Source: an uncultured Caulobacteraceae bacterium (GTDB taxonomy: Bacteria > Pseudomonadota > Alphaproteobacteria > Caulobacterales > Caulobacteraceae). From it: 64,000 nucleotides of DNA. The position numbers and the translations under genes are program-made. The stretch is from contig CAKZPF010000006.1 of the NCBI GenBank assembly GCA_937138625.1, positions 62,001-126,000 of the forward strand, given 5' to 3'. The notes beneath the pieces were generated by a model. It was not told the origin of the DNA, did not search any database, and worked only from the letters and a program-made list of their open reading frames with translations. Of this stretch, positions 34,852 through 52,205 are shown piece after piece (position 1 is the first letter of the stretch; each line of letters starts with the position of its first letter).

Positions 34852-35843
34852 AGGGTTTCTCCATGTTGGACGAGGGACAAAGAGCGTGTGACGAGCGGCT
34901 GGGTCTGATACCCCTCGCCGTCAAAGCCGGTGACGCGCAGCGCCTCTTCAACGCGCCGCTGGCCGCCTGCGCGGCTCATGAACACGACCACGTCGATGGC
35001 TTCTGCGATGAAATCGAAGGGCGCGCGCGGCGTGGCTTCGAGGGTGAGCTGTTCAAGTCGGGTCAGCGCGCCGTGGGCGGAGTTGGCATGCAGCGTCGTG
35101 ATCCCGCCGGGATGGCCGGTGTTCCAGGCCTTGAGCAGGTCGAGCGCTTCGGCGCCGCGCACTTCGCCGACAATGATACGGTCGGGACGCAGGCGCAGCG
35201 TGGACCGGACAAGATCCTGCAGGCTGGTGCTGCCGCGATGGGTGCGAAGCTGGACCACATTGGGCGCCGCGCATTTGAGCTCGCGCGTGTCTTCAAGAAT
35301 GACAATGCGATCGTCATTGAGCGTGGCCTCAGCCAGCAAGGCATTTGTAAAGGTCGTCTTGCCCGATGAGGTGCCGCCCGCGATCAGGATGTTCGCATGG
35401 CTCGCAATCGCGTCTTTCAGCGCCGAAGCAACCGCCGGTGCAAGCGCGCCCTGGGTGACATAGTCGCCCAGTTCAAACGGCGTGGTCGCGGGCTTGCGGA
35501 TCGAAAAGCACGGCGCTGTCGAAACCGGTGGGAGAAGCCCTTCAAACCGCTCGCCGCTGCCGGGGAGTTCGGCAGAAACAATTGGGGAGGACCGATCACA
35601 GGCCTCGCCTATGCTGCTCGCGACAAGGCGGATGATCCGTTCACGGGCGGTAGCAGAAATACTGTCGGGGCTGACCTCGACCCCTCGCCCCGCCCGTTCA
35701 ATCCAGATCGAGCCGTCGGGGTTGGCGAGGATTTCGATAACGTCGTCAGCTTCCAGCGCTGCCCGCACCGCGCCTTCGCAAGCAGACCGCAGCATGGATA
35801 CGCGTCGTTGGTCGGTCTCAAGCGTTCGGGCGGGTGCGGACAT
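34848..35843 (-). CDS. trbB: conjugal transfer ATPase TrbB (VirB11-like)
   Basis: A 331-residue secretion ATPase with Walker A IAGGTSSGKTTF, the Asp box ILEDTREL, the Walker B region RPDRIIVGEVRG and the His box TTLHANSAHGALTRLEQL. It is a hexameric VirB11-type traffic ATPase. The ATG at 35843 is preceded by CAGGAGA; a TTG at 35879 would add 12 residues. It is the first trb gene of the operon, after the CopG-like gene and a 200-bp gap with no other feature. Confidence 0.94.
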   Translation of the reverse strand: MSAPARTLETDQRRVSMLRSACEGAVRAALEADDVIEILANPDGSIWIERAGRGVEVSPDSISATARERIIRLVASSIGEACDRSSPIVSAELPGSGERFEGLLPPVSTAPCFSIRKPATTPFELGDYVTQGALAPAVASALKDAIASHANILIAGGTSSGKTTFTNALLAEATLNDDRIVILEDTRELKCAAPNVVQLRTHRGSTSLQDLVRSTLRLRPDRIIVGEVRGAEALDLLKAWNTGHPGGITTLHANSAHGALTRLEQLTLEATPRAPFDFIAEAIDVVVFMSRAGGQRRVEEALRVTGFDGEGYQTQPLVTRSLSLVQHGETL

Positions 35844-36045
35844 CGGGGGAGTGTCTCCTGTCGTTGCTGACAGGTCCAATCCTCTGATTTCGCTCTAATT
35901 TCTGATAGTTGGGAAAGTCGCAAACGGTCGGAACGGATCAAGAGGTCTTGCAAGATCGGGCCGTCCAACGGCTGGTAAAAGATGCAGCACTAATGCATCG
36001 GATATCACTCAATAGCCTTGGAAAATGCGCTGTATGCGTCAAAAC

Positions 36046-36467: not shown

Positions 36468-38429
36468 TCAGAATTTCGGAAAGAAGTCGCCATCCGCGCG
36501 GTCCATGCCAAGGGCGCGCTGGGCGGGTTTCAGCGTCTTGACGGCCAGATCATCCAGATCGCCCTCTCTTGCTTCCTGTTGAGGCTCTTGTTCTGGCTCC
36601 GGAGTGTCGCGCTCCGGCGGATCGAGGTTAGGCGTCTCGCTGTGTTGCAGTCCGCCTTCGTCAGAGCCAGAATCTTTGTCCGCCAACGGAAGTACTGCCC
36701 TGCTTGGCAGAACGCCATCCCAGTCATGACCCCGCCTTTCGGGGAGGACCGGATCGACGGGCGGCGGCAGAACCCGCGAGGTGAAGTTGCGGTCTTCGAA
36801 ATAGCGAAGCTTTTTCGCCTTCAATGGCCGCGCGCCGGAGACCATGACGAGTTCTTCGTCAGGGGGCAGCTGCATCACCTCACCCGGTGTCAGGAGCGGC
36901 CTTTGGGTTTCCTGGGCCGAGACCATGACATGGGAGAGCCAGGGCGCGAGGCGATGGCCGGCATAGTTGCGCTGGGCGCGTTGCTGCGTGGTTGTTCCGA
37001 GAGCGTCGGAAATCCGCTTGGCGGTGCGCTCGTCATTGGTCGCAAAGGCGATGCGCACATGACAATTGTCGAGGATCGCATTGTTCGGCCCATAGGCCTT
37101 TTCGATCTGGTTCAGGGACTGGGCGATGAGATAGGCCCGCATGCCATAGCCCGCCATGAAGGCAAGCGCGCTCTCGAAGAAGTCGAGCCGTCCCAGCGCC
37201 GGAAACTCATCCAGCATCATCAACACCTTGTGGCGGCGCTCACCCTTTCTGGGCAGCTCCTCTGTTAGCCTGCGTCCGATCTGATTGAGGATCAGGCGTA
37301 CCAGAGGCTTGGTCCGGGATATGTCGGAGGGCGGAATGACCAGATAGAGCGAGCATGGGTGTTTCCCCTCGATGAGGTCTGCAATCCGCCAGTCACTGGC
37401 GCTGGTGGCGCGGGCGATGACCGGGTCGCGGTACAGCCCCAGAAAACTCATGGCGGTGGAGAGAACGCCGGATCGCTCATTCTCAGACTTGTTCAGGAGT
37501 TCCCGCGCCGCCTGCGCCACGACGGGATGCACCGCGCTGCCGAGATGCGGGGAGTTCATCATCGCCGAGAGGGTCGCCTCGAAGCTGCGCTCCGGATCGG
37601 ACAGGAACCTCGCGCAACCGGCCAGCGTCTTGTCTTCTTCGGCATAGAGCACGTGCAGGATGACGCCTACCAACAGGGCGTGCCCGGTCTTCTCCCAGTG
37701 GTTGCGGCGCTCCAGCGAGCCTTCCGGGTCGACCAGGATGTCAGCGATGTTCTGGACATCGCGCACTTCATTGTCGCCCCGCCGCACTTCGCTCAGGGGA
37801 TTGAACCTGACGGAATCGGCATGGGTCGGTTCAAAGCGCAGGCAGTGGGAGAAGCGCGATCGCCAGCCGGAGGTCAGATCCCAGTTCTCTCCCTTGATGT
37901 CGTGAATGACTGCGCTGCCGGTCCAGCCGAGAAGGGTCGGCACGACAAGACCAACGCCTTTGCCGGAGCGGGTAGGCGCAAAGGCCATGACGTGTTCGGG
38001 GCCGTCATGGCGCAGATAGGCCTTCTTCCAGCGCCCGAGAAACACACCGTCTTCGACCAGCAGTCCTGCTTTGCTCACATCGCGCGCGCTTGCCCATCGG
38101 GCGGAGCCATAGGTGGTCAGATGCTTCTTCGATCTGGCCCGCAGCAGCGAGCCGATCACGGCGACCACCGCGCCCAGAAACCCGCCACCCGCCGCCATCA
38201 ATCCGCCGCGCGCAAACACGCCCGGCGCATAGGCTTCGTAGGCGTACCACCACTGGAACAGACGCCAGGGGCGATAGATGGGCGTATCGCCAAGCATGAA
38301 CCAGGGTCGCCCAAGCCCTGGCTGGTAGCCAAGCGCCCCTGCGGTCCACTGGGTCGCGCCCCACATCGAGAACAGGATGATCAGGCAGACCAGACAGAAG
38401 GTGCCGATAAGAACTTTAGTGCCGGTCAT
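36468..38429 (-). CDS. traG: type IV coupling protein TraG (VirD4-like)
   Basis: A 653-residue ATPase with two N-terminal membrane helices, Walker A FAPTRSGKGVGLVVPTLLG (about 160-178), a VirD4-type Walker B LMMLDEFPALGRLDF and the YLIAQSLNQIEKAYG motif. It links the relaxosome to the secretion channel. ATG 38429 has GGAG at 6 nt. No relaxase gene lies next to it, although one would be expected. Confidence 0.94.
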   Translation of the reverse strand: MTGTKVLIGTFCLVCLIILFSMWGATQWTAGALGYQPGLGRPWFMLGDTPIYRPWRLFQWWYAYEAYAPGVFARGGLMAAGGGFLGAVVAVIGSLLRARSKKHLTTYGSARWASARDVSKAGLLVEDGVFLGRWKKAYLRHDGPEHVMAFAPTRSGKGVGLVVPTLLGWTGSAVIHDIKGENWDLTSGWRSRFSHCLRFEPTHADSVRFNPLSEVRRGDNEVRDVQNIADILVDPEGSLERRNHWEKTGHALLVGVILHVLYAEEDKTLAGCARFLSDPERSFEATLSAMMNSPHLGSAVHPVVAQAARELLNKSENERSGVLSTAMSFLGLYRDPVIARATSASDWRIADLIEGKHPCSLYLVIPPSDISRTKPLVRLILNQIGRRLTEELPRKGERRHKVLMMLDEFPALGRLDFFESALAFMAGYGMRAYLIAQSLNQIEKAYGPNNAILDNCHVRIAFATNDERTAKRISDALGTTTQQRAQRNYAGHRLAPWLSHVMVSAQETQRPLLTPGEVMQLPPDEELVMVSGARPLKAKKLRYFEDRNFTSRVLPPPVDPVLPERRGHDWDGVLPSRAVLPLADKDSGSDEGGLQHSETPNLDPPERDTPEPEQEPQQEAREGDLDDLAVKTLKPAQRALGMDRADGDFFPKF

Positions 38430-38528
38430 GAACTGCTCCGAACAGACAAGGGGAGCGCTCAAGGATCAGGCAAAGAGGACCGTTCGCCCAGAAGGGAAAG
38501 GCGCAAGAGTTCGCAAGGTGCAACCAAT

Positions 38529-39245
38529 TCAGGCCATAAGCCGTTCGAGTTTGGATTTCCGCTTTTCCCAGTCTGGCATCACTCTCACGAGAAGATCGAA
38601 AAAATCAGGACCATGATGCGGATGGATCATGTGGCAGAGCTCATGGGTTATCACATAGTCGATAGCATCGACTGGTGCTTCGATGAGGCGCGTGTTCAGG
38701 ATCAGACGACCGGCCGACGACATCGAGCCCCAGCGCTGGCTGAGCTTGCGCACGATCAACGCCTTTGGATTGACTGCGTCAGGAGAGGCAAACCGCTCGC
38801 GGTTTAGCTACAAACGCTCCTCAAACTTGATCTTCGCCCGTTGCCGATACCAAACCTGGACCATATCGCGGATATGATTGTTGGTTCGAGGGCGGACCGT
38901 CTCGATATCGATGTAACCACGGTAGAGACTAACCCGGTCTATGAGGCCAGGTCTGACCTTCAGTCGGTATTGTCGTCCGAGATACAAGTGCGTTTCACCG
39001 GCGATAAACTGGCGCTCAGGAGTTCTTGGCAGGAACTGTCGGAAAAAGGCCTGCTGCTTTAGGATCCAGGCCGCGCGTTTCCGCACCTTTGCATCGATGT
39101 CTTCCGCTGCGGCGCATTGAGGAGCCGCGATGGAAACGCTCAAGTCTGGTTCGACGGCGATTTCGAGGGTTCTCCTGTCCCTCCGATCCACGGCAAACAC
39201 AATTCTGTGGGAACCGTAGTCAATCTGGCGCAACTCGACGCTCAT
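38529..39245 (-). pseudogene. YgjP-like M48/SprT-type metallopeptidase with in-frame TAG
   Basis: Two pieces in one frame. 39245-38811 encodes the N-terminal part up to KFEERL; TAG at 38810-38808 interrupts; then LNRERFASPDA leads into 38759-38529, containing the zinc motif HELCHMIHPHHGPDFF (HExxH plus a downstream His). Joined, they make the normal YgjP/DUF45 protein of about 238 residues, a family frequently encoded next to type I restriction genes. CAG to TAG is the simplest explanation. It overlaps the 3' end of the hsdR fragment by 4 nt, so it belonged to that operon. Confidence 0.85.
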
Positions 39246-41278
39246 CCAGGAAACCGGGCACGTGCCAGCTTCATCAGATCCAGTTCCAGTGTATCCAGCG
39301 TCTCCACATCAAGTGCGACGTCCTTCTGGTCTCTCAGCACATCGAAGAAATGGTCATCAATCGCATTTCGCAGCTGGTTCTGCGCGACCTCGTTGGACCA
39401 GATGTCGACAATATGATGCGCTCTGACGATCCCGATGAGGTCGAGCGCGACCTCGGCTGTGTCCGTTTCATCGAGCGCGGTCCCGTCCCTGCGAACAAGT
39501 TTTGATTCCAGGACGCCGAAAAAAGCTTGCCCGTCATCATTGCCTCTAAGCGCCTCCGGCACACGGCGTCCGCGATCCTTGGACGCGACCTTCTGGGCAA
39601 GGTCCATCACGCTGTTGAGGTAATCCCGTTCAGACAGACGCCGCGCACGGTAGTCCCTGATCGTCTCTTCCAGAAGCGCAGAGAATTTCGCGTAGAAGCT
39701 CGGGTCCTCATCCATGCGCTCCGTCAGCGTGCGTCTTGTGGCGCTGGCGATCCGGTCTGCTTTGGAGGCGTCGGTGACACCGGCTTCCTCCACAACCGCC
39801 TGGAGAGCTTTCGGGTCGTTGATATTGACGACTTCGATGATTGTTTCGGCTGGCATGGCGATGACATGGTCATCGAGCAGCTTCTGAATCTTGGGTTCGA
39901 ACTCCTTGACGTCGACTGTTTCCTGATAGCGCAACTGCACCGATCTGCGCAGCTCAGAGAAGCGCTTCCAGTCCTGCTTCATCTTGTCGAGTGTTTCGGG
40001 CGCGAACACGTCCAGAGCCTTGTCAGACGACATCGCGATGTGCAGGCAGCGGCCAAAGGCCCGGAACCTCGCATAGAAATCCTGGCGTACCGCTTCATCG
40101 CCGAGGAATTGCTCGAACGCCTCCATATCCTTCTTGTTGGCCACTGGCTTGAACAGGTCCCAGAGCTGGTCATGCAGTTGTGGCAGGCGACGGATCTCTT
40201 CTTTGAAGTCGTGAACTGTTCCGGCGAGATCGGCGTCGTCATAGCCTTCAAATGCCGTGTACGTTGTGAGTGCCTTGTCGAGCTCGCCGAGCAATCCCTC
40301 ATAGTCGATGATGAACCCGAACTGCTTCTCGGTGTCGCCATCCTCGAAGAGCCGGTTCACCCTCGCAATAGCCTGTAGGAGGTTATGCTCTCGCAGCGAC
40401 TTGCAGACATAGAGAACAGTGTTCCGAGGTGCATCAAAGCCGGTCAGGAGCTTCGAGACGACAATCAGAATCTCCGGGTCGCCGGAACCCTTAAAGGCCT
40501 CGATGATGTCGCGGTTGTACGCGTCTTCGCTTTTGTAGCGGGCCATCATCAAGGACCAGAAGCGCCGCACGAGGTCTTTGGACTCAACGTCCACTTCCTC
40601 ATTGCCTTCGTTTTCATCGGGCGGCGAAATAATGATCTCGCTGGTCACGTGACCGATCTCGTCGAGCACTTCCTTGAACCGGACAGCCGCAGCTTTTGAC
40701 GGCGCGACGAGTTGCGCCTTGAAGCCTGTCCCCTGCCAGTGCTGGCGATAATGCTCGGAAATGTCGAACGCTTTGGCCCGGATCGCTTGTCCAGTTTTCG
40801 ACAGCGCATCCATGCGGGAAAATTTGCGTTTTAGGTCAGCTTTCTGCTGGTCGGTAAGGCCCTCGGAAATCTTGTCGAACCAGGTGTCGATCACCGCGCC
40901 CGTGATCTGCTGATCGACGAGCCGACCTTCATAGAGCAGCGGAACGACCGCGCCATCAGCTACCGCTTCATCGATCTTATAGTGATGGATGAGACCGCCG
41001 AACGTCTTAAGCGTGTTCTTGTCCTTCTTCAGGAGCGGCGTGCCCGTGAAGCCGAGATAGCAGGCCTTGGGCAGGAGCCGGCGCATCTTCATCGCAAACT
41101 GGCTATGCCCGCCATAGCGGCCGGTCTGCGTGCGATGGCTTTCATCGATCAGCACAAACAGATTGTCGTCTTCGTCCGGCTCGTCACCATGGCGAAGCGC
41201 GGTGTCGAACTTGTTGATAATGGTCGTGATGAGCGGCGTTCGTGCACGGATCAGTGAAAGGAGGTCTGAGCCGCTGGT
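39242..41278 (-). pseudogene. hsdR: type I restriction HsdR, 3' two-thirds only
   Basis: From TSGSDLLSLIRARTPLITTI onward the frame reads as the helicase and C-terminal part of HsdR: the DEAH-like motif LIDESHRTQTGRYG, GFTGTPLL, KLLTGFDAPR and the motif VI region QAIARVNRLF. The N-terminal PD-(D/E)xK nuclease domain and Walker A are missing; at 41278 the frame passes into parB-derived sequence. No hsdM or hsdS exists in the window. The fragment cannot cut or translocate DNA, but the remaining frame (about 680 codons) has no internal stop, so the deletion may be recent. Confidence 0.85.
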
Positions 41279-41300
41279 CATGGCGTGGGCCGCCATCAGG

Positions 41301-42347
41301 CGCTGCGCCATGGCGATGAAGGAGGATGTACTCCGCCAGCGGACCGGACATTTCCGGTTTGACGGGCGCTGCGGACGCATCGTCCTGAGCAGATTTCGCC
41401 TTCTCCTGCCGCCGCGCCTCGGCTTGGCTGACGTAGCCTTCATGGAAGGTCACAGTGCCGTCATGGCGAAGCTCGACATAGACCTCGCCGCCTTGGCGTT
41501 TGGTGCGCGTCTGATGATCCCAGCGATGGAAAAACGCGCCTCGCTCAAGGCAGACAACGTCCTTCCAGCCGCCTGCAATGTAAGCCTCGATGCGCTGCGC
41601 CACGGCGGTGGACTGCGCCTTCCAGAAGGCTTCGGGATCGTTGAACACGCCATGTTCGCCAAACAGGTCAGCGGTGATCTGGCCGTCATAGTCGGCGATG
41701 TCGAACAGGGCCTTGTCAGTGGTGATCAACGCTCCGCCAGTGATCCAAGCCTTGCAGTTCCTGCCTCGCGGTGCGCGTTCGTCCTCGCTCGCGTAAAGCC
41801 GCAGCCACTCGGCCTGCTGCTCCTCCGTGGCGAGCGTCAAGGCGCGGATCGTCTCGCGGTCGATCTCCTCCTCGGCGTAGAGTTTGCGGATCGGCTCACT
41901 GAGCGAGGCGAGCGCCAGAACGCGCCGCACCAGAAGCTCGGTCACACCAAAGAAAGCGGCAATCTCGTCGACGCTGCGCCCCTCATCGTGAAGCCGCTTG
42001 AAGGCGGTGTACTGCTCCATTTCCGAGGCTGGCAGGCGTCCGACATTCTCGATGACGGATGCTGCGATGGCGCTCGCGGCGTCTTCCTCGGCCATGATCG
42101 CGCAAGGCACTTGCGGCGTTTGTCCCGTTTCCTTCTCGATCTCTTTCAGGGCGAAGTAGCGCCGCCGTCCGGCGACGACGCCATAATGATCGCCTTCCTT
42201 GCGCACCAAGAGCGTCTGGCGGATTCCGCTCTCGCGGATCGATGGCAGGATGTCGGACACGTCCGGCTTCTTGCGGCTGTGGCGCATATTGAGTCGGGAA
42301 ATCCGAAGCTCGGACAGAGGGATGGATTTGAGAACGGGCTGGGCCAT
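41301..42347 (-). pseudogene. ParB-family protein, truncated at the 3' end
   Basis: The N-terminal ParB/Spo0J domain (LSELRISRLNMRHSRKKPDV, then VVAGRRRYFAL) and helix-turn-helix (VDEIAAFFGVTELLVRRVLAL) are intact, preceded by an AGGAG ribosome site. Homology-like sequence ends around GPLAEYILLHRHGAA (near 41301). The shifted frame over 41279-41300 (AQRLMAAHAM) still resembles a ParB C-terminus, then passes into hsdR. The frame itself runs on to 41184 as nonsense. Such long ParB-like proteins are typical ICE accessory genes; this one has lost its C-terminal half. Confidence 0.8.
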
Positions 42348-42395: not shown

Positions 42396-42872
42396 TCAGG
42401 CGCGCGCCCCGCTGGTTTCCAGCGCCGCACAAAGGCGGCGAGCGGCGGCGTGGCCTGCGTCCAGCGCTTCGGGCAGAAGCTCCTCTGCGACCTCGGTCAG
42501 GTAGGCATTGTCGCTATCGGGATAGTTCGCCTCGATGCCCCAAAGGCTCGCCGCATGGGCGTCCAAGGTGACGCCTTCCAGCGCGACTGACAGAACTATT
42601 CCGCAATAGAACCATTCATCCTTGTGCCACGCCTCCATGACGGCTTCGGCCTTGGCCTGCGCCTCGGCAAAGCGTTGCCTGTGATTTGGTCCGGGACCGA
42701 TAAATCCCGGCGCGTCCTTGTAGAGCGATGGCCAGAATCCGTCCTGGCGCTGGTCCGGTGCATCAGGACAATCATCGCGCACAATGCGCGCGATGATCTC
42801 GAAGCCTTGGGCCTCGCAACTGATGCTGTCGCCTTCGCAGACGAAGTCAGAAAATCGTTCCGTGAACGTCAT
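42396..42872 (-). CDS. hypothetical ICE accessory protein
   Basis: A 158-residue acidic protein starting at ATG 42872 (MTFTERFSDFVCEGDSISCE). It is encoded between the small cysteine protein and parB, in the position of a conserved hypothetical protein of alphaproteobacterial ICEs. Contains GIVLSVALEGVTLDAHAASL and a helical C-terminus. No function is known. The start overlaps the stop of the upstream gene by 4 nt, so it is translated in the ardA operon. Confidence 0.75.
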   Translation of the reverse strand: MTFTERFSDFVCEGDSISCEAQGFEIIARIVRDDCPDAPDQRQDGFWPSLYKDAPGFIGPGPNHRQRFAEAQAKAEAVMEAWHKDEWFYCGIVLSVALEGVTLDAHAASLWGIEANYPDSDNAYLTEVAEELLPEALDAGHAAARRLCAALETSGARA

Positions 42873-43087
42873 TGCGCGCCCTCCTTGAAGAGTCCGGCAA
42901 TGGCGATCCAGTGCGGGCCATAGACGGCGTGCTCGCCGCATTCGTCGCATGGATAGGCGCTCGCATCGGGTTCGCAGCATCCGCGCGGGGCGCGGCAGGC
43001 AAGGCAGAAGCCTTCCTGCCAGTCGTCGGCTTGCTCAAGTTCTTCCACGGTGAAACGATAGCGGGTGGTTTCGGGAGTCATGTCCAA
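42869..43087 (-). CDS. small cysteine-rich (zinc-binding?) protein
   Basis: A 72-residue protein with FCLACRAPRGCCEPD and YPCDECGEHAVYG, giving CxxC-like pairs that could hold one or two zinc ions. It lies 8 bp after ardA and overlaps the next gene by 4 nt. Small proteins of this kind are common in the ardA-parB segment of such elements; the function is unknown. Confidence 0.75.
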   Translation of the reverse strand: MDMTPETTRYRFTVEELEQADDWQEGFCLACRAPRGCCEPDASAYPCDECGEHAVYGPHWIAIAGLFKEGAQ

Positions 43088-43095: not shown

Positions 43096-43662
43096 TTACC
43101 GCGACCAGAAAATGTGGACTTCATCAAAGCCGGTCTGGAACACCATGATCTCGCCATTCAGCGCCATGTCGCGGGCAAGCGCCTGCCAGTCGATATAGTA
43201 GCGAAGGCTTTCGGGAATCTCGGTGCCGGTGTCCTCGTGCAGGCTCTCGGCGAAGTCTGCGGCGCTGCGATATTCGCCCGCATAGTCCTCAAAGGCGGCG
43301 CGGGCCTCGGCGAGGTCGTCGCCGAAATGCTCAAGCAATTTGCCGCCAAGCTCGCCATGTTCCTCAATGAAATCGGCAAGCTCGCACACGGTTTCGAAGC
43401 TCGCATATTCGGAAAGGTTCGCACCCTCGAAGCCTTCGTAATCGTGGATCGCCCATTCCTCGGCGTCGGGTTCGGGCGATGCCGCCAGCATGGCGCGAAC
43501 CTGTTCCCAAATCTCGTCGGGGGTGGTCGCGTTGATCCATCGGCCATGCAGGCAGCCATTATTGTAGGCTGCAAGGCAGGCCACGTAGATGCGCGGTCTC
43601 TCCGCTCGCGCGGGTACAGCGCTGGCTGCAAGAGGTGCAGCGGTTGCGAGTTGGTCAGTCAT
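43096..43662 (-). CDS. ardA: antirestriction protein ArdA
   Basis: A 188-residue, strongly acidic protein. RIYVACLAAYNNGCLHGRWI is the ArdA N-terminal signature, and the EEWAIHDYEGFEG, FADFIEEHGELG and DFAESLHEDTG segments follow. ArdA dimers mimic bent DNA and block type I restriction-modification enzymes, protecting incoming element DNA. Its presence beside an hsdR remnant fits an element that once carried both. A very large inverted repeat lies immediately upstream (43693-43864), a place where ssDNA-dependent promoters are known in plasmid leading regions. Confidence 0.92.
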   Translation of the reverse strand: MTDQLATAAPLAASAVPARAERPRIYVACLAAYNNGCLHGRWINATTPDEIWEQVRAMLAASPEPDAEEWAIHDYEGFEGANLSEYASFETVCELADFIEEHGELGGKLLEHFGDDLAEARAAFEDYAGEYRSAADFAESLHEDTGTEIPESLRYYIDWQALARDMALNGEIMVFQTGFDEVHIFWSR

Positions 43663-43692
43663 GTCAGTCTCCTTCCCCGCCCGCGTTCTTTT

Positions 43693-43864
43693 CCCGACAG
43701 TCGGGTGGGCGGCGAGGAGGTGCTCAGCCAGAGCGCACCAGGGCGCCGCGCAAGGGGAAGCTGTAGGTATGACGCCTAAAGACGTTCAGAGACGACGCAG
43801 TCCCGCCCCCTTGCGCGGCGACCGCGCTCTGGCAGACGCACCGTCCGCCCACCTGACTGATGGG
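43693..43864. promoter_or_regulatory. large imperfect inverted repeat upstream of ardA
   Basis: Left arm 43693-43757 and right arm 43807-43864 share, in order, a 20-nt block (17 matches, CCCGACAGTCGGGTGGGCGG), a perfect 10-nt block (GCCAGAGCGC) and a perfect 13-nt block (GCCGCGCAAGGGG), with small bulges, around a 49-nt loop. It begins 30 bp upstream of ardA. It could fold into a long hairpin when single-stranded and act as an ssDNA promoter, an origin of transfer, or a strong regulatory structure. No gene lies in 43663-43906. Confidence 0.7.
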
Positions 43865-43906
43865 AACAGATATTGAGGCGGAGGGAGACTGGGGTGGCGA
43901 TTGGAT

Positions 43907-44754
43907 CTATGGTGCTGTCGCCGAAGCGATCCACGCGGCTGCGGGCATGGTCACCCGTCCGTCTTTGTCGATGTGCGCAGCAAGCCGGTTTGCCAACAAG
44001 TCCTCGACGTGGGACAGATCGATACCGGCCTCCGCGACCAATCTTGCCGTAGGTCCAAGCTCGACCATGAAGCTTGCTGCCTCTGCGACAGTATCCCCAG
44101 GGATAGTAATTCGACCAAGCCAGGGTTGAATGCTGATCCCTTTCCAGCCCGCTTCTTTAAGCATCGTCGCCACATAATCCTTATTGGCGAAGGCAAACGG
44201 CCCGGGCGCTCCCGGCGAGGGTTGCGCTGGCGGCTCTGGTAAAAGCGGGATGGCCGCTTCAAGAGGCGCACGTGCCCAGTCATTGTCGTTGAGGGATTGC
44301 CAGCAGACGAAGGTCATCCGACCTTCAGGTCTTAGACTATCTCGGAGATTGGCGAAGGCGGCGACAGGGTCATCGAAGAACATGACGCCGAACCGCGAGA
44401 TCAAAGCATCGATAGGTCGCTTGGGCCGGAAGACAGAGGCGTCGGCCTCTTCAAACGAGGCGGGAGAGCATCACGTTCGGCCGCTCGGCGGTCGGCAAGC
44501 GAGAGCAAGGGCCTGGACACATCGACCCCGAGCGCGCCGTGTCGATCACCGACCTGAAAGGCGGCTTTTAGGGTGAGCGCCCCCGCGCCGCAGCCGACGT
44601 CGAGGACATACTCGTCCTCCTTCAAGGAAGCTGCTTGGAGAACGGCATCGGCGAAAGGCTCGAGCAAGGCATCGAGCCGGTCCGCTTGGCGCACCCATTT
44701 TTGGCCCACCTCGCCATTCCAATAATCGATCTGCTCGGAATTTTTGATCGCCAT
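43907..44754 (-). pseudogene. class I SAM-dependent methyltransferase with frameshift
   Basis: The first part (44754 down to about 44470) has DYWNGEVGQKWV and the SAM-binding VLDVGCGAGALTLKAA; after about ALP the frame is lost. The adjacent frame then continues ASFEEADASVFRPKR and SRFGVMFFDDPVAAFANLRD to the stop at 43907. Adding one G in the CTCCCGCC stretch near 44470 restores a normal methyltransferase of about 280 residues, so a 1-nt deletion (or a homopolymer sequencing error) is likely. It is the last gene of the minus-strand sulfur-transport operon. Confidence 0.8.
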
Positions 44755-44973
44755 CTACTGCGGCCTGCATGTGCGCAGTCCAAAGATCCGGTAGAGCGGA
44801 CAGAATTTGATCATGCTGGTGCCAAGCATGATGACGCCGACGGCGACCAGCGCGATCCGCTCCCAGCCCCAACCGCCTGCAGCGGCGATTGGACCGACAA
44901 AGACAAACGCAAGGGCGGCAATTCCTATAAGTACGCGTAGCACGCGATCTATGGTTCCGACATTGGCAGACAT
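44755..44973 (-). CDS. DUF2892 (YgaP-like) membrane protein
   Basis: A 72-residue protein, MSANVGTIDRVLRVLIGIAAL, with two membrane helices and a conserved ending MIKFCPLYRIFGLRTC. DUF2892 forms the membrane part of the rhodanese YgaP and occurs alone in sulfide-oxidation clusters. A Met at 44973 is preceded by GAGAGGAAG; an earlier start at 45009 lies inside the YeeE gene. Its place between YeeE/YedE and the methyltransferase supports a role in sulfur handling. Confidence 0.8.
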   Translation of the reverse strand: MSANVGTIDRVLRVLIGIAALAFVFVGPIAAAGGWGWERIALVAVGVIMLGTSMIKFCPLYRIFGLRTCRPQ

Positions 44974-45005
44974 GGTGCTTCCTCTCCTGATTGATCTGAT
45001 TGTGT

Positions 45006-45437
45006 TCACGCAGCTTTTGGGCGCGGCGTCATGCGGTCGACGACTTCAAAGGCCGACATTCCAGCGCCCATCGCCGCCAGAAAAACGAGGGCGGGCGCCC
45101 CGAAGGTCAGTGCAGAGATTGCTGGTCCGGGGCAAAGTCCAACAAGACCCCAGCCGATGCCGAACAAGACGGCACCGAGGGCAAGTCGCGTGTCGATCTG
45201 GCGGTTACCCGGCACTTGAAAACGCTCAGCGAAGACCGGCTTCTGCCTCGTCCAGGCGAGGCGATATCCGATCGCAGTCACGATAAGCGCGCCGCCCATC
45301 ACGAACGCAAGCGATGGGTCCCAATTGCCGAACAGGTCCAGAAACGCCACTACCTTGGCAGGGTTGACCATTTCGCTGATCGTCAGGCCAAGGCCAAAAA
45401 TCAGTCCAGCGAATAAAGCTGCTATGTTGCGGCCCAT
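45006..45437 (-). CDS. YeeE/YedE-family sulfur transporter half (DUF6691, PmpB-like)
   Basis: A 143-residue membrane protein with about four helices and the motifs GLGLTISEMVNPAKVVAFL and GWGLVGLCPGPAIS, which contain the conserved Cys of the family. The family imports thiosulfate or other sulfur compounds or moves sulfane sulfur across the membrane. It works as a pair with the preceding gene (gap 3 bp). Such pairs are usual members of the BigR regulon. Confidence 0.88.
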   Translation of the reverse strand: MGRNIAALFAGLIFGLGLTISEMVNPAKVVAFLDLFGNWDPSLAFVMGGALIVTAIGYRLAWTRQKPVFAERFQVPGNRQIDTRLALGAVLFGIGWGLVGLCPGPAISALTFGAPALVFLAAMGAGMSAFEVVDRMTPRPKAA

Positions 45438-45440
45438 GAC

Positions 45441-45866
45441 TTAACCTCCGAATACTGATTTTAATACAGCTACGGTCACCATGCCGGCGCCCATAAACAG
45501 CGCTACCGACGCCATTGAACGCGTCGACAGGCGCGAGAGACCACAAACGCCGTGACCGCTTGTGCAGCCGGAGCCAAGCCGTGTTCCGAACCCGACCAGC
45601 AAGCCGCCGGCGATAATCACCGGCCAGTTCTGCGTGATCTCAAAAGGCGGCTGCTTCCCCTGCACAAGCGCCCATAGAGCTGGTGCCGCGATCAGACCGA
45701 CGATGAAAAGAATACGCCAAAGCTTGTCACCACGCTCGGCGAAGACAGAGCCTGAGAAGACGCCGCTTATGCCTGCTATGCGCCCGTTCAGCGTCATTAA
45801 CAGTACGGCGGACAGCCCGATCAGGGCCCCGCCGATTGATGCGCTGATGGGTGAGAAATTCTCCAT
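45441..45866 (-). CDS. YeeE/YedE-family sulfur transporter half (PmpA-like)
   Basis: A 141-residue membrane protein starting MENFSPISASIGGALIGLSA, with the diagnostic GSGCTSGHGVCGLSRLS motif (two essential cysteines in the sulfur path) and four to five helices. It is the first gene of the minus-strand sulfur operon, diverging from the peroxiredoxin gene across an 87-bp control region. The ATG at 45866 is the only start giving the family N-terminus. Confidence 0.9.
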   Translation of the reverse strand: MENFSPISASIGGALIGLSAVLLMTLNGRIAGISGVFSGSVFAERGDKLWRILFIVGLIAAPALWALVQGKQPPFEITQNWPVIIAGGLLVGFGTRLGSGCTSGHGVCGLSRLSTRSMASVALFMGAGMVTVAVLKSVFGG

Positions 45867-45902
45867 GGAGCATGCCTCGCTTAAACGATTTACGGTTATG
45901 TA

Positions 45903-45932
45903 TTGACACATCTGTAATTCGTATTGTATCAA
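45903..45932 (+). promoter_or_regulatory. promoter with overlapping inverted repeat (candidate BigR operator)
   Basis: TTGACA (45903-45908), 18 bp, TATCAA (45927-45932) gives a fair sigma-70 promoter for the peroxiredoxin-bigR operon. The same bases form the inverted repeat TTGACACA-N14-TGTATCAA with one mismatch in 8. A BigR/SqrR-type repressor bound here would shut off both divergent operons. Confidence 0.45.
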
Positions 45933-45953
45933 TAGGCAAGCGAGAGTTTTGTC

Positions 45954-46610
45954 ATGATTGAAATCAACACAGCCCCCTCCCAGCCGAATACAGCGCGCAT
46001 TGACGATATCGCGCCGGACTTCATCGCCCGCAGCACGCAAGGCGAGGTCAAATTGTCGGACTATCGCGGGCGGTGGCTGCTTTTCTTTTCGCATCCTGCG
46101 GACTTCACACCGGTCTGCACTTCGGAATTTGTGGCGCTACAGAAAGTGAAATCGCAGCTCGAAGCATTAAACTGCGACCTGCTCGGCCTCTCCGTCGACA
46201 GTCTTTATGCCCACATTGCGTGGGTGAAAGACATCGAAGCGCGCTTTGGCGTGAAGATCACGTTCCCGATCATTGAAGACATCTCGATGGCCGTCAGCCG
46301 CGCCTACGGCATGATCCATGAGGGCTCAGCAACGACGGCGGCGGTCCGATCGGTCTTTTTCATTGATCCAGAGGGCTATGTCCGCGCACTCATCCATTAC
46401 CCTATGAATGTCGGCCGCTCTGTCGATGAGCTTCTGCGCGTCCTGCACGCATTGCAAACCTCTGACGCCTGCGGTCTCGCAACACCGGAAGGCTGGAGAC
46501 CAGGCGATGCCGCCCTTCTGCCCCCGCCGCTCGATCAAACCGAAGCCGACAAGCGTTCGTCGATGAATGGCGGCGCCTGGTATCTCACCCATGTGGAGGT
46601 GAACCATTGA
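45954..46610 (+). CDS. peroxiredoxin (1-Cys/Prx6-type)
   Basis: A 218-residue peroxiredoxin with HPADFTPVC (peroxidatic C55) and the Prx6-type C-terminal domain containing YPMNVGRSVDELLRVLHALQ. Two further cysteines (about 66 residues and 116 residues... the NCDLLG and DACGLA segments) are not in the usual resolving position. It reduces H2O2, alkyl peroxides or possibly persulfides. It is the first gene of the operon with the ArsR-type regulator, the MBL protein and SQR, so a role in sulfide or persulfide stress is likely. Confidence 0.9.
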   Translation: MIEINTAPSQPNTARIDDIAPDFIARSTQGEVKLSDYRGRWLLFFSHPADFTPVCTSEFVALQKVKSQLEALNCDLLGLSVDSLYAHIAWVKDIEARFGVKITFPIIEDISMAVSRAYGMIHEGSATTAAVRSVFFIDPEGYVRALIHYPMNVGRSVDELLRVLHALQTSDACGLATPEGWRPGDAALLPPPLDQTEADKRSSMNGGAWYLTHVEVNH

Positions 46611-47020
46611 CACCAATAACACAGGATATTGCGCCTCTAGCGAGCGAAGCGACCGAGCTTTTGAAAGCGCTCGCGCATCCAGAGCGGCTCATGATCTGCT
46701 GCCAGTTGCGCGACACAGAAATGTCGGTGGGCGATATCGAAACCACGCTCGACATCAAACAGCCGCGTCTGTCGCGCGAACTCTCGAAGCTGCGCGATAC
46801 TGGGCTGGTCACGACCCGCAAGGAATCGAAGCTCGTCTTCTACACACTGTCCGACAAGCCGCGTGTCCGGGAGATGGTTGATGCGATCTGCGCCGTCATG
46901 TTCGGCAAGGCGGTGTCAAAACCTGGCCGCGGGACCGCCTCCCCAAAACTCAAACCCAATCGCCCTGGCGACTATGGCGTGTTCGCCCGGACCGATTTTT
47001 CCCTCAAGACAGGAGCCTAA
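46607..47020 (+). CDS. bigR: ArsR-family persulfide-responsive regulator (BigR/SqrR-like)
   Basis: A 137-residue winged-helix repressor: HPERLMICCQLRD, then KQPRLSRELSKLRDTGLVTTRKESKLVFY. Cysteines C31/C32 and C95 have nearly the spacing of the two sensing cysteines of BigR/SqrR (about 65 residues), which form a disulfide or polysulfide bridge in response to persulfides. The start is the TTG overlapping the peroxiredoxin stop by 4 nt. Location with MBL, SQR and YeeE/YedE genes supports the assignment. Confidence 0.82.
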   Translation: MTPITQDIAPLASEATELLKALAHPERLMICCQLRDTEMSVGDIETTLDIKQPRLSRELSKLRDTGLVTTRKESKLVFYTLSDKPRVREMVDAICAVMFGKAVSKPGRGTASPKLKPNRPGDYGVFARTDFSLKTGA

Positions 47021-47021
47021 A

Positions 47022-47888
47022 GTGAGCGAACCGAAAGTTACCGGCTTCTTTGACGAAGCCACTTATACGATCAGTTATGTTGTCTCTGATCCCTCGACCG
47101 GAAAATGTGCCGTCGTCGATTCCCTGCTCGACTTTGATCAGGCGTCCGGTCGCACCAGCACACAATCGGCAGACATGCTCATTGCCTTCGTGCGCGAGAA
47201 CGATCTGACGTGCGAGTGGATTATCGATACGCATGTGCATGCTGATCACCTGACCGCTGCGCCTTACATCAAGCAGAAACTTGGCGGTCGCACCGCGATC
47301 GGCGACCAGATCTCGACAGTTCAGCGCGTCTTCAAGGCGATCTTCAATGAAGACCAGCGGTTTCACACCGATGGCAGCCAGTTTGATCACCTCTTCAGAG
47401 ATGGCGAGACATACACCATCGGCAACCTTCAAGGGCGTGCGATCCACACGCCGGGCCATACGCCCGCCTGTATGAGCCATCTCATTGGCGATGCGCTCTT
47501 CGTCGGCGATACCATCTTTATGCCGGATTTCGGGACCGCGCGCTGCGATTTTCCAGGCGGGGATGCGGGGACGCTGTTTGATTCGATTCAAAAGCTGTTC
47601 GCGCTGCCAGATGAGACACGCATCTTCCTTTGCCATGATTATAAAGCCCCCGGGCGCGATGAATATGTCTGGGAGGCGACGATTGGTGCAGAGAAAGCGG
47701 ACAATATTCACGTCAAAACCGGCACCTCCTGCGAGGAGTTCATCGCGATGCGCACCGCGCGCGATGCGACCCTCGCCATGCCGAAGCTGATACTACCCTC
47801 TGTCCAGATCAATATGCGTGCCGGTAAGATGCCGCCGCCGGAAGACAATGGCATTCGGTACATGAAGGTCCCGATCAACGCACTCTAA
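47022..47888 (+). CDS. blh: MBL-fold persulfide dioxygenase-type hydrolase (Blh/ETHE1-like)
   Basis: A 288-residue metallo-beta-lactamase-fold protein with DTHVHADHLTAA (HxHxDH, residues 71-76), the HTPGHTPACMSHLIGD segment and IFLCHDY (last His ligand). This is the ETHE1/Blh branch, which oxidises glutathione persulfide to sulfite using one iron atom. GTG 47022 has AGGAG 6 nt upstream. BigR-type operons typically contain this gene. Confidence 0.88.
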   Translation: MSEPKVTGFFDEATYTISYVVSDPSTGKCAVVDSLLDFDQASGRTSTQSADMLIAFVRENDLTCEWIIDTHVHADHLTAAPYIKQKLGGRTAIGDQISTVQRVFKAIFNEDQRFHTDGSQFDHLFRDGETYTIGNLQGRAIHTPGHTPACMSHLIGDALFVGDTIFMPDFGTARCDFPGGDAGTLFDSIQKLFALPDETRIFLCHDYKAPGRDEYVWEATIGAEKADNIHVKTGTSCEEFIAMRTARDATLAMPKLILPSVQINMRAGKMPPPEDNGIRYMKVPINAL

Positions 47889-47924
47889 AGTCTAATCAAA
47901 AAATATGTCGGGAGGACGACCCCT

Positions 47925-49676
47925 ATGGATATCAAGACAATTGCACCGGACCTAGCGGTCTCACCGCAGATCACCGTTCAGGATGTCGGTATCGCCGCGA
48001 GCCAGGGGTTCCGGTCCGTGATCATCAATAGGCCTGATGGTGAGTCTACGGATCAAGCCGATCATCAGGCCATCGAGGACGCTGCAAAGCGCCTAGGTCT
48101 GTCGGTGCGATATATTCCCATTGTCCCTGGGAAAGTGACGGACGCGGACGTTGAAGCTTTCGACAAGGCCATGCATGAGCTGCCCGCACCCGCGCTAGCC
48201 TATTGCCGAACAGGTACCCGCTCGGCAACGCTCTGGGCACTTTCACAAGCTGGTCACCTCTCCACTGACGTGATCTTGAAAACCGTTGGCGGTGCCGGTT
48301 ACGACTTGTCTGGTCTTCGGGCACGTCTTGAGGCCCGCGACAAAGCGGGCGAGGCGACGACGAGCGACGGGATCGGGCGGGTCAAATCCCATGATGTGGT
48401 GATTATCGGCGGCGGTGCGGCGGGCATCTCCACCGCTGCGTCCATTCTGAAACGGCGGGGCGAGGTTGACATCGCCATTATCGAGCCGCGTACAGAGCAT
48501 TACTACCAACCTGGCTGGACTTTGGTCGGCGGCGGTGTCTTCAAGCGCGAGCAGACCGAGCGTCAAATGGCGACCTTGATGCCCAAAGGCGTCCAATGGG
48601 TCCGTGCCGCCTGCGCCGGGTTCGATCCGGAGCGCAATCAGGTCATCCTCGAGGATGGCACACGCATAGGCTACAAAGTTCTGGTCGTTGCGCCGGGTTT
48701 GAAGCTCAACTGGGATGGGATCGAGGGCCTAAAAGACACCCTCGGCAAAAATGGCGTGACCTCGAATTACCTCTTCGATATGGCCCCTTACACTTGGGAG
48801 CTTGTCCAGTCGATGAAAGGCGGACGCGCTCTCTTCACCCAGCCGCCCATGCCGATCAAATGCGCCGGCGCCCCGCAAAAAGCGATGTATCTTGCTTGCG
48901 ATGCGTGGAAGCGTCGAGGTGTCCTGAAGGATATTGATGTCGAATTCCACAACGCAGGCGGCGCCCTGTTCGGGGTCAAAGACTATGTCCCTGCCCTGAT
49001 GAAGTATGTCGACAAGTACGGCATCAATCTTTGCTTCAACGAGACACTTGTCGCTGTTGATGGCGCGCAGAAAACGGCCTGGTTTGATGTAACGAACGCG
49101 GAGGGCAACGTCACCCGCGAGGCCCGGGAATTCGACATGATGCATGTTTGCCCGCCACAAACATCGCTCGATTTCGTCGCAGACAGCCCACTCGCCAATG
49201 AGGCCGGATGGGTCGATGTCAGCGGCGAAACGCTGCAGCACAATCAATACGGCAACGTGTTCGGCCTCGGCGATGCAGGCTCGACCCCAAATGCCAAGAC
49301 CGCCGCAGCCGTGCGTAAGCAAGCGCCGGTCGCCGCGCACAATGTCCTCTGTGTCCTCGACGGGAAGGCGCCCAACGCGGTCTATAACGGTTATGGCTCC
49401 TGTCCACTCACAGTCGAGCGAGGCAAAATCGTGTTGGCTGAATTTGCGTACGGTGGAAAGCTCGACCCGTCAGTCCCGAAATGGATGCTGGATGGGACGA
49501 AGCCCACGCGCGCAGCCTGGTTCCTGAAAGAGAAGATGCTGCCCAACATCTATTTCGACATGATGTTGCGCGGCACGGAGACACTCGCGGAGCCGAAGCT
49601 CCTCCCGCACCGGCCAGCCTCGCATGAGGCTCAAGAGGCGTGTGATTTCAAGGATGCGCCGTCAAAGGTGGCGTAG
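47925..49676 (+). CDS. DUF442 phosphatase/sulfurtransferase-like domain fused to sulfide:quinone oxidoreductase
   Basis: A 583-residue fusion. Residues 1-120 are a DUF442 (Blh N-terminal) domain with the active loop CRTGTRS (C94). From about 150 follows an SQR flavoprotein: FAD motif VVIIGGGAAGISTA, PGLKLNWDGIEGL, IKCAGAPQKA (C313) and YGSCPLT (C493), which correspond to the two redox cysteines of the human SQOR-type enzyme. It oxidises sulfide to persulfide at the membrane and passes electrons to quinone. The fused domain may accept or process the sulfane sulfur. GGGAGGA lies upstream of the ATG. Confidence 0.9.
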   Translation: MDIKTIAPDLAVSPQITVQDVGIAASQGFRSVIINRPDGESTDQADHQAIEDAAKRLGLSVRYIPIVPGKVTDADVEAFDKAMHELPAPALAYCRTGTRSATLWALSQAGHLSTDVILKTVGGAGYDLSGLRARLEARDKAGEATTSDGIGRVKSHDVVIIGGGAAGISTAASILKRRGEVDIAIIEPRTEHYYQPGWTLVGGGVFKREQTERQMATLMPKGVQWVRAACAGFDPERNQVILEDGTRIGYKVLVVAPGLKLNWDGIEGLKDTLGKNGVTSNYLFDMAPYTWELVQSMKGGRALFTQPPMPIKCAGAPQKAMYLACDAWKRRGVLKDIDVEFHNAGGALFGVKDYVPALMKYVDKYGINLCFNETLVAVDGAQKTAWFDVTNAEGNVTREAREFDMMHVCPPQTSLDFVADSPLANEAGWVDVSGETLQHNQYGNVFGLGDAGSTPNAKTAAAVRKQAPVAAHNVLCVLDGKAPNAVYNGYGSCPLTVERGKIVLAEFAYGGKLDPSVPKWMLDGTKPTRAAWFLKEKMLPNIYFDMMLRGTETLAEPKLLPHRPASHEAQEACDFKDAPSKVA

Positions 49677-49774
49677 GCTTGATCTGAAGAAGGCTCGCAG
49701 ACGCTTCCGTCTCCCCCCGAAAACGCCGTCGCGGGCCTTCTTCATCTCATCCATTTTCGATCAGGTCGTTCGAC

Positions 49775-51583
49775 ATGCAGTTAGCGCGCTATTTTCCCAT
49801 TCTCGACTGGGCTCCCAAATATCGAGGCGACACGTTCGTCAACGACATGGTGGCCGCCGTGATCGTGACCATCATGCTGATCCCGCAATCTCTCGCCTAC
49901 GCGCTGCTGGCAGGCCTGCCTCCAGAGATTGGTCTGTACGCGTCAATTCTTCCATTGATTGTCTATGCGATCTTCGGTTCTAGCCGTCAGCTCGCCGTCG
50001 GTCCGGTGGCGATCCTGTCGCTGATGACAGCCGCAGCGGCGGGCAAGATCGCCGCGCAGGGCAGCGCTGAGTATATTCAGGCAGCTGTCATTCTCGCGCT
50101 TTTGACGGGTCTGATCCTGCTCGCCATGGGCCTCTTCCGCATGGGTTTTCTGGCAAACTTCCTCAGCCATCCGGTCGTCTCGGCCTTCATCACCGCGTCC
50201 GGCATCATCATTGCCGCTTCGCAGGTGAAGCACATTCTCGGTATCGATGCGGGCGGACACAATCTTTTTGAGATCGTCGTTTCGCTCTTTGAGAAGCTGC
50301 CCGAAACCAATCTCCCGACGCTCTATATTGGCGGGGCCTCGCTCGTCTTCCTGTTCTGGGTGCGCAAACAATTCAAACCCCTGCTGAAAGCGATCGGGCT
50401 TGGCGACAAGGCTGCAACGATTATCGCGCGCGCGGGGCCGGTCTTTGCCGTGGTAGCGGGTATTCTCGTTGTCGCGGGAATGGGACTCGACAAGCAGGGC
50501 GTCAAAATCCTCGGAAATGTGCCGCAAAGCCTGCCTGCCATTGGCGTACCCGCCTTTAATGCCGACATCTGGATGCAGCTTCTAGGCTCAGCCGCTCTAA
50601 TTAGCTTGATCGGCTTTGTGGAGTCGGTTTCCGTCGGCCAAACATTGGCGGCAAAGAACCGAACACGAATCGACCCAAACCAGGAACTGATCGGCCTCGG
50701 CGCGGCGAGCTTTTCCGCCGGTGTCTCATCCGGCTATCCGGTTACGGGCGGCCTTGCGCGCTCTGCGGTGAACTTCGATGCAGGCGCTGAAACACCCGCA
50801 GCGGGGGCGTTTACAGCCGTCGGCATCGCGCTTGCCACGGTCTTCCTAACGCCTTACATCTTCTATCTGCCACAGGCAGTACTCGCCGCGACCATCATCG
50901 TGGCTGTGCTTTCCCTGGTTGATATCCCCGAAGTCATAAAGGTCTGGAAGTATTCCAAATCCGACTTTGCAGCGATGGCCGCGACCATCTTTATGACTCT
51001 CGGGTTCGGCGTTGAGCTTGGTGTCACCACTGGTGTCGCGCTGTCTCTTCTCTTGCATCTCTACAATACCAGTCGTCCACATTTTGCGCTGGTTGGCCAA
51101 ATGCCAGGAACGCAACATTTTCGTAACGTCAACCGGCATTCGGTCGTCGTTTCTGACACCGTCCTGACACTGCGTATTGATGAAAGCCTCTACTTCGCCA
51201 ATGCGCGCTTTTTGGAAGACACAGTCTATTGCATGCTGTCCAGCCGACCGGACATTAAGCATCTTATCCTTATGTGTCCGGCGGTGAACCATATCGACGC
51301 CAGCGCGCTGGAAAGCCTTGAAGCGATCAACCATCGCCTCAAAGACGCGGGCGTTACGCTTCACCTGTCAGAAATCAAGGGCCCGGTAATGGACCGGCTG
51401 AAACGCACGCATTTCCTCGATGAGCTGACCGGCAAGGTCTTCCTCAATCAGTATGAAGCCATGCTCGAATTGGACGTTGAGTGCGCAGCATCTGCCCTCG
51501 ATAAATCGGCCCAAACAACAAAGCCCGACTCCGATCCATGCCCATCGCTTCGCCTTGCGGGGCTCCAACCGCCCGATTTGTGA
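49775..51583 (+). CDS. SulP-family anion transporter with STAS domain
   Basis: A 602-residue permease: about 12 membrane helices (1-430) with the SulP signature around PPEIGLYASILPLIVYAIFGSSRQLAVGP, and a C-terminal cytoplasmic STAS domain (about 445-570, with LILMCPAVNHIDASALESLEAI). It probably exports or imports sulfate, sulfite or bicarbonate. In this operon, downstream of SQR, removal of the sulfite or sulfate product is plausible. Confidence 0.9.
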   Translation: MQLARYFPILDWAPKYRGDTFVNDMVAAVIVTIMLIPQSLAYALLAGLPPEIGLYASILPLIVYAIFGSSRQLAVGPVAILSLMTAAAAGKIAAQGSAEYIQAAVILALLTGLILLAMGLFRMGFLANFLSHPVVSAFITASGIIIAASQVKHILGIDAGGHNLFEIVVSLFEKLPETNLPTLYIGGASLVFLFWVRKQFKPLLKAIGLGDKAATIIARAGPVFAVVAGILVVAGMGLDKQGVKILGNVPQSLPAIGVPAFNADIWMQLLGSAALISLIGFVESVSVGQTLAAKNRTRIDPNQELIGLGAASFSAGVSSGYPVTGGLARSAVNFDAGAETPAAGAFTAVGIALATVFLTPYIFYLPQAVLAATIIVAVLSLVDIPEVIKVWKYSKSDFAAMAATIFMTLGFGVELGVTTGVALSLLLHLYNTSRPHFALVGQMPGTQHFRNVNRHSVVVSDTVLTLRIDESLYFANARFLEDTVYCMLSSRPDIKHLILMCPAVNHIDASALESLEAINHRLKDAGVTLHLSEIKGPVMDRLKRTHFLDELTGKVFLNQYEAMLELDVECAASALDKSAQTTKPDSDPCPSLRLAGLQPPDL

Positions 51584-51615
51584 TGCGGGGCATTGCGCTA
51601 AGAAAATCCTCGCTG

Positions 51616-52077
51616 CTAGGCCTCAAGTCGGCTTTTCGTCGCCTGATTGGCCATCAAGCGCTCGATCAACACTGGACCATCGGCAATCATGTCGGCGAGC
51701 GTGACCTTGTCCAGTTCGGCAAAAAATGCCTTGAGACCCGTCCTAAAAAGAACGCTGAGTTTGCAAACGCCAATCAGTGGGCATGTGTTGGTCTCCGGAT
51801 TGAAGCATTCGACAATTTCAAGGTCACCTTCAGTGTGGCGGACAACTTCGCCAATCACAATGTCCTCAGGGCTGCGGGCGAGACGAACGCCACCGGTTCG
51901 ACCTCGGATGTTTTCGAGGTAACCCAATTGGCCCAGCTGACGCGCTGCCTTGAGCAGATGCGCCCTCGAAATCCCGTAAGCGTTGGAGACATCTTCCATG
52001 CGGACCAGTTGGCCAGAATGCAGGGCGCAGAACATCAGCGTACGCAGCGCATAGTTCGTGTAGGCGGTCAGTCTCAA
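51616..52077 (-). CDS. nsrR: Rrf2-family NO-responsive regulator (NsrR-like)
   Basis: A 153-residue Rrf2 protein starting MRLTAYTNYALRTLMF, the NsrR-type opening, with helix-turn-helix ISRAHLLKAARQLGQLGYLE and three iron-sulfur cysteines (C91, C99, C105 in CFNPETNTCPLIGVC). NsrR binds an Fe-S cluster that NO destroys. The TTG at 52077 is preceded by GAGGAG; earlier starts add residues foreign to the family. It diverges from cydAB and probably controls it. Confidence 0.87.
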   Translation of the reverse strand: MRLTAYTNYALRTLMFCALHSGQLVRMEDVSNAYGISRAHLLKAARQLGQLGYLENIRGRTGGVRLARSPEDIVIGEVVRHTEGDLEIVECFNPETNTCPLIGVCKLSVLFRTGLKAFFAELDKVTLADMIADGPVLIERLMANQATKSRLEA

Positions 52078-52098
52078 TGGGATCTCCTCAGGGCAGCA

Positions 52099-52149
52099 TG
52101 TCGCATGCGACAAAAAGTGTTCTCGATAATTACACTTATATCTTTAAGT
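52099..52149. promoter_or_regulatory. two inverted repeats in the nsrR-cydA control region
   Basis: TGTCGCATGCGACA (52099-52112), a perfect 14-bp palindrome, lies 22 bp before nsrR. ACTTA-TATCTT-TAAGT (52134-52149), with perfect 5-bp arms, lies nearer cydA. The second is AT-rich, as Rrf2 operators usually are; the first may bind another factor. The cydA ribosome site GGAGG is at 52192-52196. Confidence 0.4.
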
Positions 52150-52205
52150 AGTCTCTTATATGCCACTTTATGTGTCGTCCGTCAAATTTTTGGAGGTAAA
52201 GCCTC

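Follow-up and report, generated by a model that had tools for sequence, protein, structure and literature searches.

A conserved hairpin upstream of ardA in Tn4371-related alphaproteobacterial ICEs, under selection on one strand and likely to act as a single-strand promoter

The window, by which we mean the whole stretch of 64,000 nucleotides analyzed here, carries an antirestriction gene, ardA, with a large inverted repeat directly upstream of it (about 10–25 nt from the ardA start, an interval that holds a GGAG ribosome-binding site) and the following genes on the same strand as ardA:

43096 to 43662, minus strand: ardA, antirestriction protein of 188 amino acids (PF07275, E 2.9e-48)
42869 to 43087, minus strand: small ORF after ardA, 72 amino acids, no Pfam match
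42396 to 42980, minus strand: conserved unknown protein, a relative of a 214-amino-acid protein of L023 (the second element of this genome, described below), which follows ardA in most relatives
41301 to 42347, minus strand: parB-like gene, truncated at residue 349 of 590
36468 to 38462, minus strand: traG coupling protein (PF02534, E 6e-108)
26743 to 35879, minus strand: trb type IV secretion genes, trbB to trbI

The traG gene and the trb cluster mark this region as part of a Tn4371-like ICE. Searching across the 64-kb window, we found no traI, no traF and no oriT core, and these absences, together with the truncated parB, indicate that the window's own element is a rearranged copy. Because this copy lacks the relaxase and the oriT core, the claim for a single-strand promoter developed below rests on related elements. 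Several other features of the window are recorded here as observations: a type I restriction R-subunit-like ORF comes after the truncated parB (39242–42347); trbB lies on the opposite side and strand relative to its place in L023; a methyltransferase gene, apparently split into two frames, lies next to the inverted repeat (43907–44754); and 44755–54625 holds likely sulfur- or sulfide-handling cargo, judged from translations alone without searches, with YeeE-like transporters, an ArsR-type regulator, persulfide dioxygenase-like and sulfide-quinone reductase-like proteins, a SulP transporter and a cytochrome bd-like oxidase.

A repeat search of the window resolved the inverted repeat into three pairs of arms (43687–43712/43845–43870, 26 nt, 85%; 43724–43736/43824–43836, 13 nt, 92%; and 43741–43757/43807–43823, 17 nt, 94%, with 49 nt between them) that are nested on one common axis; the whole folds into a single hairpin. 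Its parts, with column numbers referring to the alignment A2 of hairpin copies introduced below, are as follows:

43687 to 43870, plus strand (the structured strand, which is the predicted transferred strand and the ardA template): single-stranded DNA hairpin, supported by a fold z of −9.7 and by covariation in 65 aligned copies
43706 to 43712, plus strand: 5′ arm of the basal helix, TGGGCGG, pairing with 43845–43851 (A2 columns 52–58/199–205)
43727 to 43736, plus strand: 5′ arm of the middle helix, GCCAGAGCGC, pairing with 43824–43833
43741 to 43757, plus strand: 5′ arm of the apical helix, pairing with 43807–43823
43758 to 43806, plus strand: terminal loop of ~49 nt (A2 motif columns)
43824 to 43851, plus strand: 3′ arm of the middle and basal helices (repeat search and A2 structure)

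Folded as DNA, the plus strand of 43680–43880 reached −70.4 kcal/mol, compared with −40.3 ± 3.1 kcal/mol for 200 dinucleotide shuffles, none of which folded as well (0/200; z −9.7). The minus strand of the hairpin region reached −65.9 kcal/mol (z −7.3), and weak pairing extended beyond the hairpin core of 43687–43870 to ~43665/43891. The original prediction, made from the sequence alone, had described an inverted repeat at 43693–43864 in front of ardA and had proposed folding the single strand in silico; the repeat held and is slightly longer than was described, and the fold gave one hairpin. The only inexact point was a 13-nt block described as perfect, which holds one mismatch, its inner 10 nt being perfect.

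The same genome carries a second copy of the hairpin (93% identity), also before an ardA, in the second element, L023. The likeness between the two elements stops where the hairpin ends on its outer side, with ardA on the inner side. Unlike the window copy, L023 is intact around these genes, with the order DUF3363 relaxase, traF, parB, unknown, ardA, hairpin, and beyond the hairpin it continues with XhoI-type restriction-modification cargo, then a regulator and trbB. L023 meets the hallmarks of a Tn4371-related ICE (DUF3363 relaxase, S26-peptidase traF, parB, trb cluster and oriT in the traF–traI gap), which the window copy meets only in part (trb, traG and parB, with traI and traF missing). 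In L023 an XhoI-family endonuclease and an Eco57I-like methylase lie immediately outside the hairpin (10213–12679), placing restriction cargo beside anti-restriction.

An ArdA protein search over about 85,000 species genomes yielded 80 loci, mostly from Hyphomonas, Henriciella and other Hyphomonadaceae and also from Parvularcula, Aquisalinus and Marinicaulis. A hairpin was found at the same position in 75 out of 75 related loci, which were those examined with enough upstream DNA (z −2.9 to −11.3), and the gene order hairpin–ardA–unknown–parB–traF–traI was kept among relatives in a single orientation. We aligned 65 hairpin copies (alignment A2) and derived their structure with RNAalifold, which gave 34 pairs, of which 24 were compensatory, with both sides changed. 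Of the cells, 95.5% were paired, compared with 81.8% after shuffling and <47% in slid controls; double-change cells numbered 254 versus 68 in the control; and the covariation score was 0.366 versus 0.125 for shuffled and ≤0.073 for slid alignments. Both sides had changed in seven of the nine pairs of the middle helix, where 98.6% of cells were paired, and in 12 of the 14 pairs of the apical helix, and entire helices were swapped in relatives (for example, GCCAGAGCGC/GCGCTCTGGC to GCGCGAGGGC/GCCCTCGCGC). The terminal loop contains the motif AGGTAKGA (43765–43772, A2 columns 114–121), which is 88–100% conserved except at one column and is kept in nearly all copies; the loop motif AGGTAGGA is conserved. 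The hairpin is therefore a conserved element of dozens of related alphaproteobacterial ICEs. Lack of conservation in related ICEs, named in advance as an outcome that would refute the original idea, was checked for and not observed.

Searches by DNA similarity returned only this genome's two copies from 299 genomes of the host family, the other matches (about 25–55 nt) being attributable to chance, and no match from 72,556 plasmids. A covariance model (R1), built from the hairpin family and run on 385 genomes of the class, gave matches in the window genome and in one more, where the match likewise lay ahead of ardA; the 'family' and 'order' of that other genome comprise only four genomes. Across the searched loci, the window genome and this further genome, R1 matches occurred before ardA only.

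The variation among copies also reported the strand on which the structure is kept. Read on the ardA-template strand, wobble cells comprised 77 G·T and 8 A·C (47.8 versus 6.6 when weighted), with G·T and A·C near 1:1 in slid controls. A structured mRNA would tolerate G·U on the sense strand, which corresponds to A·C on the template; the reverse was seen, and the structure thus serves the strand opposite the ardA mRNA. Folding energies calculated with DNA parameters pointed the same way: the template strand folded better in 64 out of 64 distinct copies, by a mean of 8.5 kcal/mol, whereas the strand difference in random windows of the same loci was −0.4 ± 4.1. For other ardA loci part of the energy difference is a selection effect, as indicated by a control mean of 1.4 kcal/mol. 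The structure is therefore under selection on the strand complementary to the ardA mRNA. Deamination of cytosines in an exposed single strand may strengthen the wobble bias, provided that the strand exposed is this one.

Relating this strand to conjugation required the position of oriT. In a Tn4371-family ICE, oriT has been mapped experimentally to the traF–traI gap, where a conserved 20-bp block lies nearer to traF and an inverted repeat nearer to traI (PMC11448139). In the corresponding gap of the relatives we found GATGTGCAGACAA, an inverted repeat with covarying arms, and then ATCTTG/CC or ATCTCG/CC (slash at the putative nic), the ATCTTG variant having been obtained by alignment:

L023, 4891 to 4943, plus strand: conserved oriT core of Hyphomonadaceae ICEs, 53 nt, also present at 40 related loci

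In all 41 elements the core lies on the ardA-template strand, with the inverted repeat 5′ of nic. The nic site of MOBP systems is YATCCTG/Y, which ATCTTG/CC resembles; a search of L023 with the RP4-type YATCCTG motif alone gave nothing convincing. By the rule for MOBP origins, the transferred strand would run traI–nic–traF–parB–ardA–hairpin, and ardA would therefore lie in the leading region, about 5 kb from nic in L023. Two more distant elements, L145 and L151, agree with this. The features expected of a leading region, genes read towards oriT with the transferred strand as template, are thus met in the related elements; the window copy is rearranged. With nic assigned by motif, polarity and analogy, the predicted transferred strand is both the ardA template and the strand with the selected hairpin, as a single-strand promoter requires.

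Two segments of the 3′ arm resemble promoter boxes:

43811 to 43816, plus strand: TTGCGC, a −35-like box of the 3′ arm, the arm that would supply the non-template strand once the promoter is folded
43833 to 43838, plus strand: −10-like box CAGACG in the internal loop between the middle and lower helices, role inferred

The TTG is nearly invariant despite covarying neighbor pairs, and A43834 (100%) and A43836 (97%) both lie in the conserved internal loop. TTG and A43834 are offset by 23 nt in 65 out of 65 copies, which gives the arrangement TTGCGC-N16-CAGACG; variants of the second box extend to CATAAG. Because the matches to the E. coli consensus are weak (3/6 for TTGCGC against TTGACA, 2/6 for CAGACG against TATAAT), the boxes are only suggestive. 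The proposed search for −10 and −35 boxes in the stem thus found box-like segments at an invariant spacing with a poor consensus match. Over this stretch the template arm is ~4 nt longer, so the spacing of the boxes would differ in the duplex.

We consider it likely that the hairpin is an Frpo/ssi-like single-stranded DNA promoter in the leading region of a Tn4371-related alphaproteobacterial ICE, with transcription from single-stranded DNA itself inferred. In this model, the transferred strand (plus in the window) would enter the recipient 5′ end first, in the order nic, traF, parB, small genes, ardA and hairpin, and the hairpin would fold into a duplex while the DNA is still single-stranded. 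RNA polymerase would bind it with the 3′ arm as the non-template strand, using TTGCGC as −35 and, after 16 nt, the pre-opened CAGACG as −10. Transcription, with a predicted start at about 43706–43712 on the template, would proceed outward via the base of the stem and back towards oriT, reading ardA and then the genes beyond it. ArdA would thus be made before the DNA became a duplex and so a target for type I restriction. Synthesis of the complementary strand would abolish the promoter, because each arm would then pair with its complement on that strand.

What supports this model here is the covarying structure, the selection on the transferred or template strand, the position and polarity of the oriT core, the spacing of the boxes and the place before ardA. 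Binding of RNA polymerase, the start site, the switch-off in duplex DNA and protection in the recipient are inferred. The single-strand promoter reading of the original prediction is thus supported by covariation and strand bias, with promoter activity on single-stranded DNA remaining an inference. Against the model, the loop motif AGGTAGGA has no part in it and may hint at another function of the single-stranded DNA, the apex lacks an A/T-rich UP element, and there are no transcription data.

The closest known counterparts are two single-strand promoters of plasmid F, Frpo1 and Frpo2, and a third, ssi of ColIb-P9. All serve genes of the leading region, the ColIb-P9 ardA among them; Frpo1 and Frpo2 are required for early expression in recipients (PMC9849209). 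Like these, the ardA hairpin is a structure of ~200 nt that forms on the (predicted) transferred strand and precedes leading-region genes transcribed towards oriT, and as in F a segment with TTG lies close to the apex in the 3′ arm (TTGTGG in F, TTGCGC here). As a positive control, the same procedure applied to F (ssb) and ColIb-P9 (ssb) gave z of −7.6 and −7.8, with the template strand more stable. Unlike the Frpo and ssi elements of enterobacterial plasmids, the ardA hairpin is GC-rich, lacks an A/T-rich UP segment, has a long conserved loop and a 16-nt spacer, and resides in a chromosomal alphaproteobacterial ICE with a DUF3363 relaxase. The covariance model R1 found no match in the leading regions of F and ColIb-P9. 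The comparison with Frpo/ssi proposed in the original prediction thus holds for fold and strand, with no sequence relation detected; lacking a sequence or covariance match, the hairpin is not a member of the Frpo/ssi sequence family.

The elements themselves are like Tn4371-family ICEs and their alpha-I/alpha-II relatives in having traI, traF, parB and trb modules and in placing oriT in the traF–traI gap, with an inverted repeat beside a conserved block (PMC11448139). That paper makes no mention of anti-restriction genes, and we found no description of a single-strand promoter in it. A survey of leading regions relied on similarity to Frpo/ssi and on consensus boxes of E. coli (PMC11541004). 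Within the literature open to searching, single-strand promoters have been demonstrated in enterobacterial plasmids (F and ColIb-P9), and we found no report of one in ICEs of this type, with most subscription papers and preprints outside our reach. If the model is correct, zygotic expression of anti-restriction genes extends to ICEs of aquatic Alphaproteobacteria and is independent of Frpo ancestry, and wobble bias on the transferred strand offers a sequence-independent test for finding more such promoters.

The rival that survives best, although we regard it as unlikely, is a single-strand origin (sso), in which the hairpin, formed on the transferred strand, would recruit RNA polymerase or a primase to prime synthesis of the complementary strand, its location ahead of ardA being of secondary importance. 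In its favor are the structure on the transferred strand, the conserved single-stranded loop motif, the known presence of sso elements in ICEs (e.g., sso1 of ICEBs1; PMC4595007) and the production of primer RNA by Frpo itself (according to the title of ref. 6 in PMC11541004). The sso elements of ICEBs1 and rolling-circle plasmids likewise place structured single-stranded DNA, possibly recruiting RNA polymerase, on an ICE strand, but they are from Firmicutes and have no tie to an anti-restriction gene. A site that served priming alone would have no need to lie 10–25 nt ahead of one and the same gene in all elements or to aim promoter-like boxes into ardA. A priming role is compatible with a promoter role, and the two may coexist.

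Less probable still is a structured RNA, small or antisense, transcribed from the plus strand away from ardA. The wobble bias would suit any single-stranded copy of the plus strand, RNA included, but no Rfam family scored above its gathering score (a search with the hairpin returned only miRNA-precursor long-hairpin models, far below threshold), and the promoter would have to lie in the start of ardA, whereas conservation ends at the hairpin edge. A sense-strand RNA, or 5′ UTR, was also considered and is ruled out by the wobble bias. Comparably improbable is a double-stranded inverted repeat or cruciform binding a repressor of ardA, which would fit the inverted symmetry and the location before the gene but explains neither the 77:8 strand bias nor the replacement of whole helices through compensatory changes. 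That the hairpin is itself the origin of transfer, an alternative raised in the original prediction and favored by a large dyad near conjugation genes, failed and is all but excluded, because the hairpin does not qualify as a nic site beside the relaxase gene and recognized by its product, and a separate oriT core with a nic-like site lies in the traI–traF gap of 41 relatives, the proven place of oriT in a Tn4371-type ICE (PMC11448139) and about 4.9 kb from the hairpin in L023.

Returning to the single-strand promoter, a bolder reading, for which we see as much reason to doubt as to believe, is that the hairpin belongs to a class of its own, which evolved independently and is confined to ardA in ICEs of Alphaproteobacteria. 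Promoters of this class would be rich in GC, their −10 bubble would be open in advance, and an unknown factor would bind the loop motif in a sequence-specific manner. At loci of the host family (L028–L049), a second structure, different in form and unrelated in sequence, lies ~35–290 nt upstream of ardA. Its compensatory pairs are few (5/37), its wobble cells are biased to the template strand (60 G·T versus 4 A·C), and its alifold energy is −48.6 on the template strand versus −35.8 on the sense strand. As part of the bolder reading, this structure with the same strand bias would suggest that single-strand promoters have arisen repeatedly.
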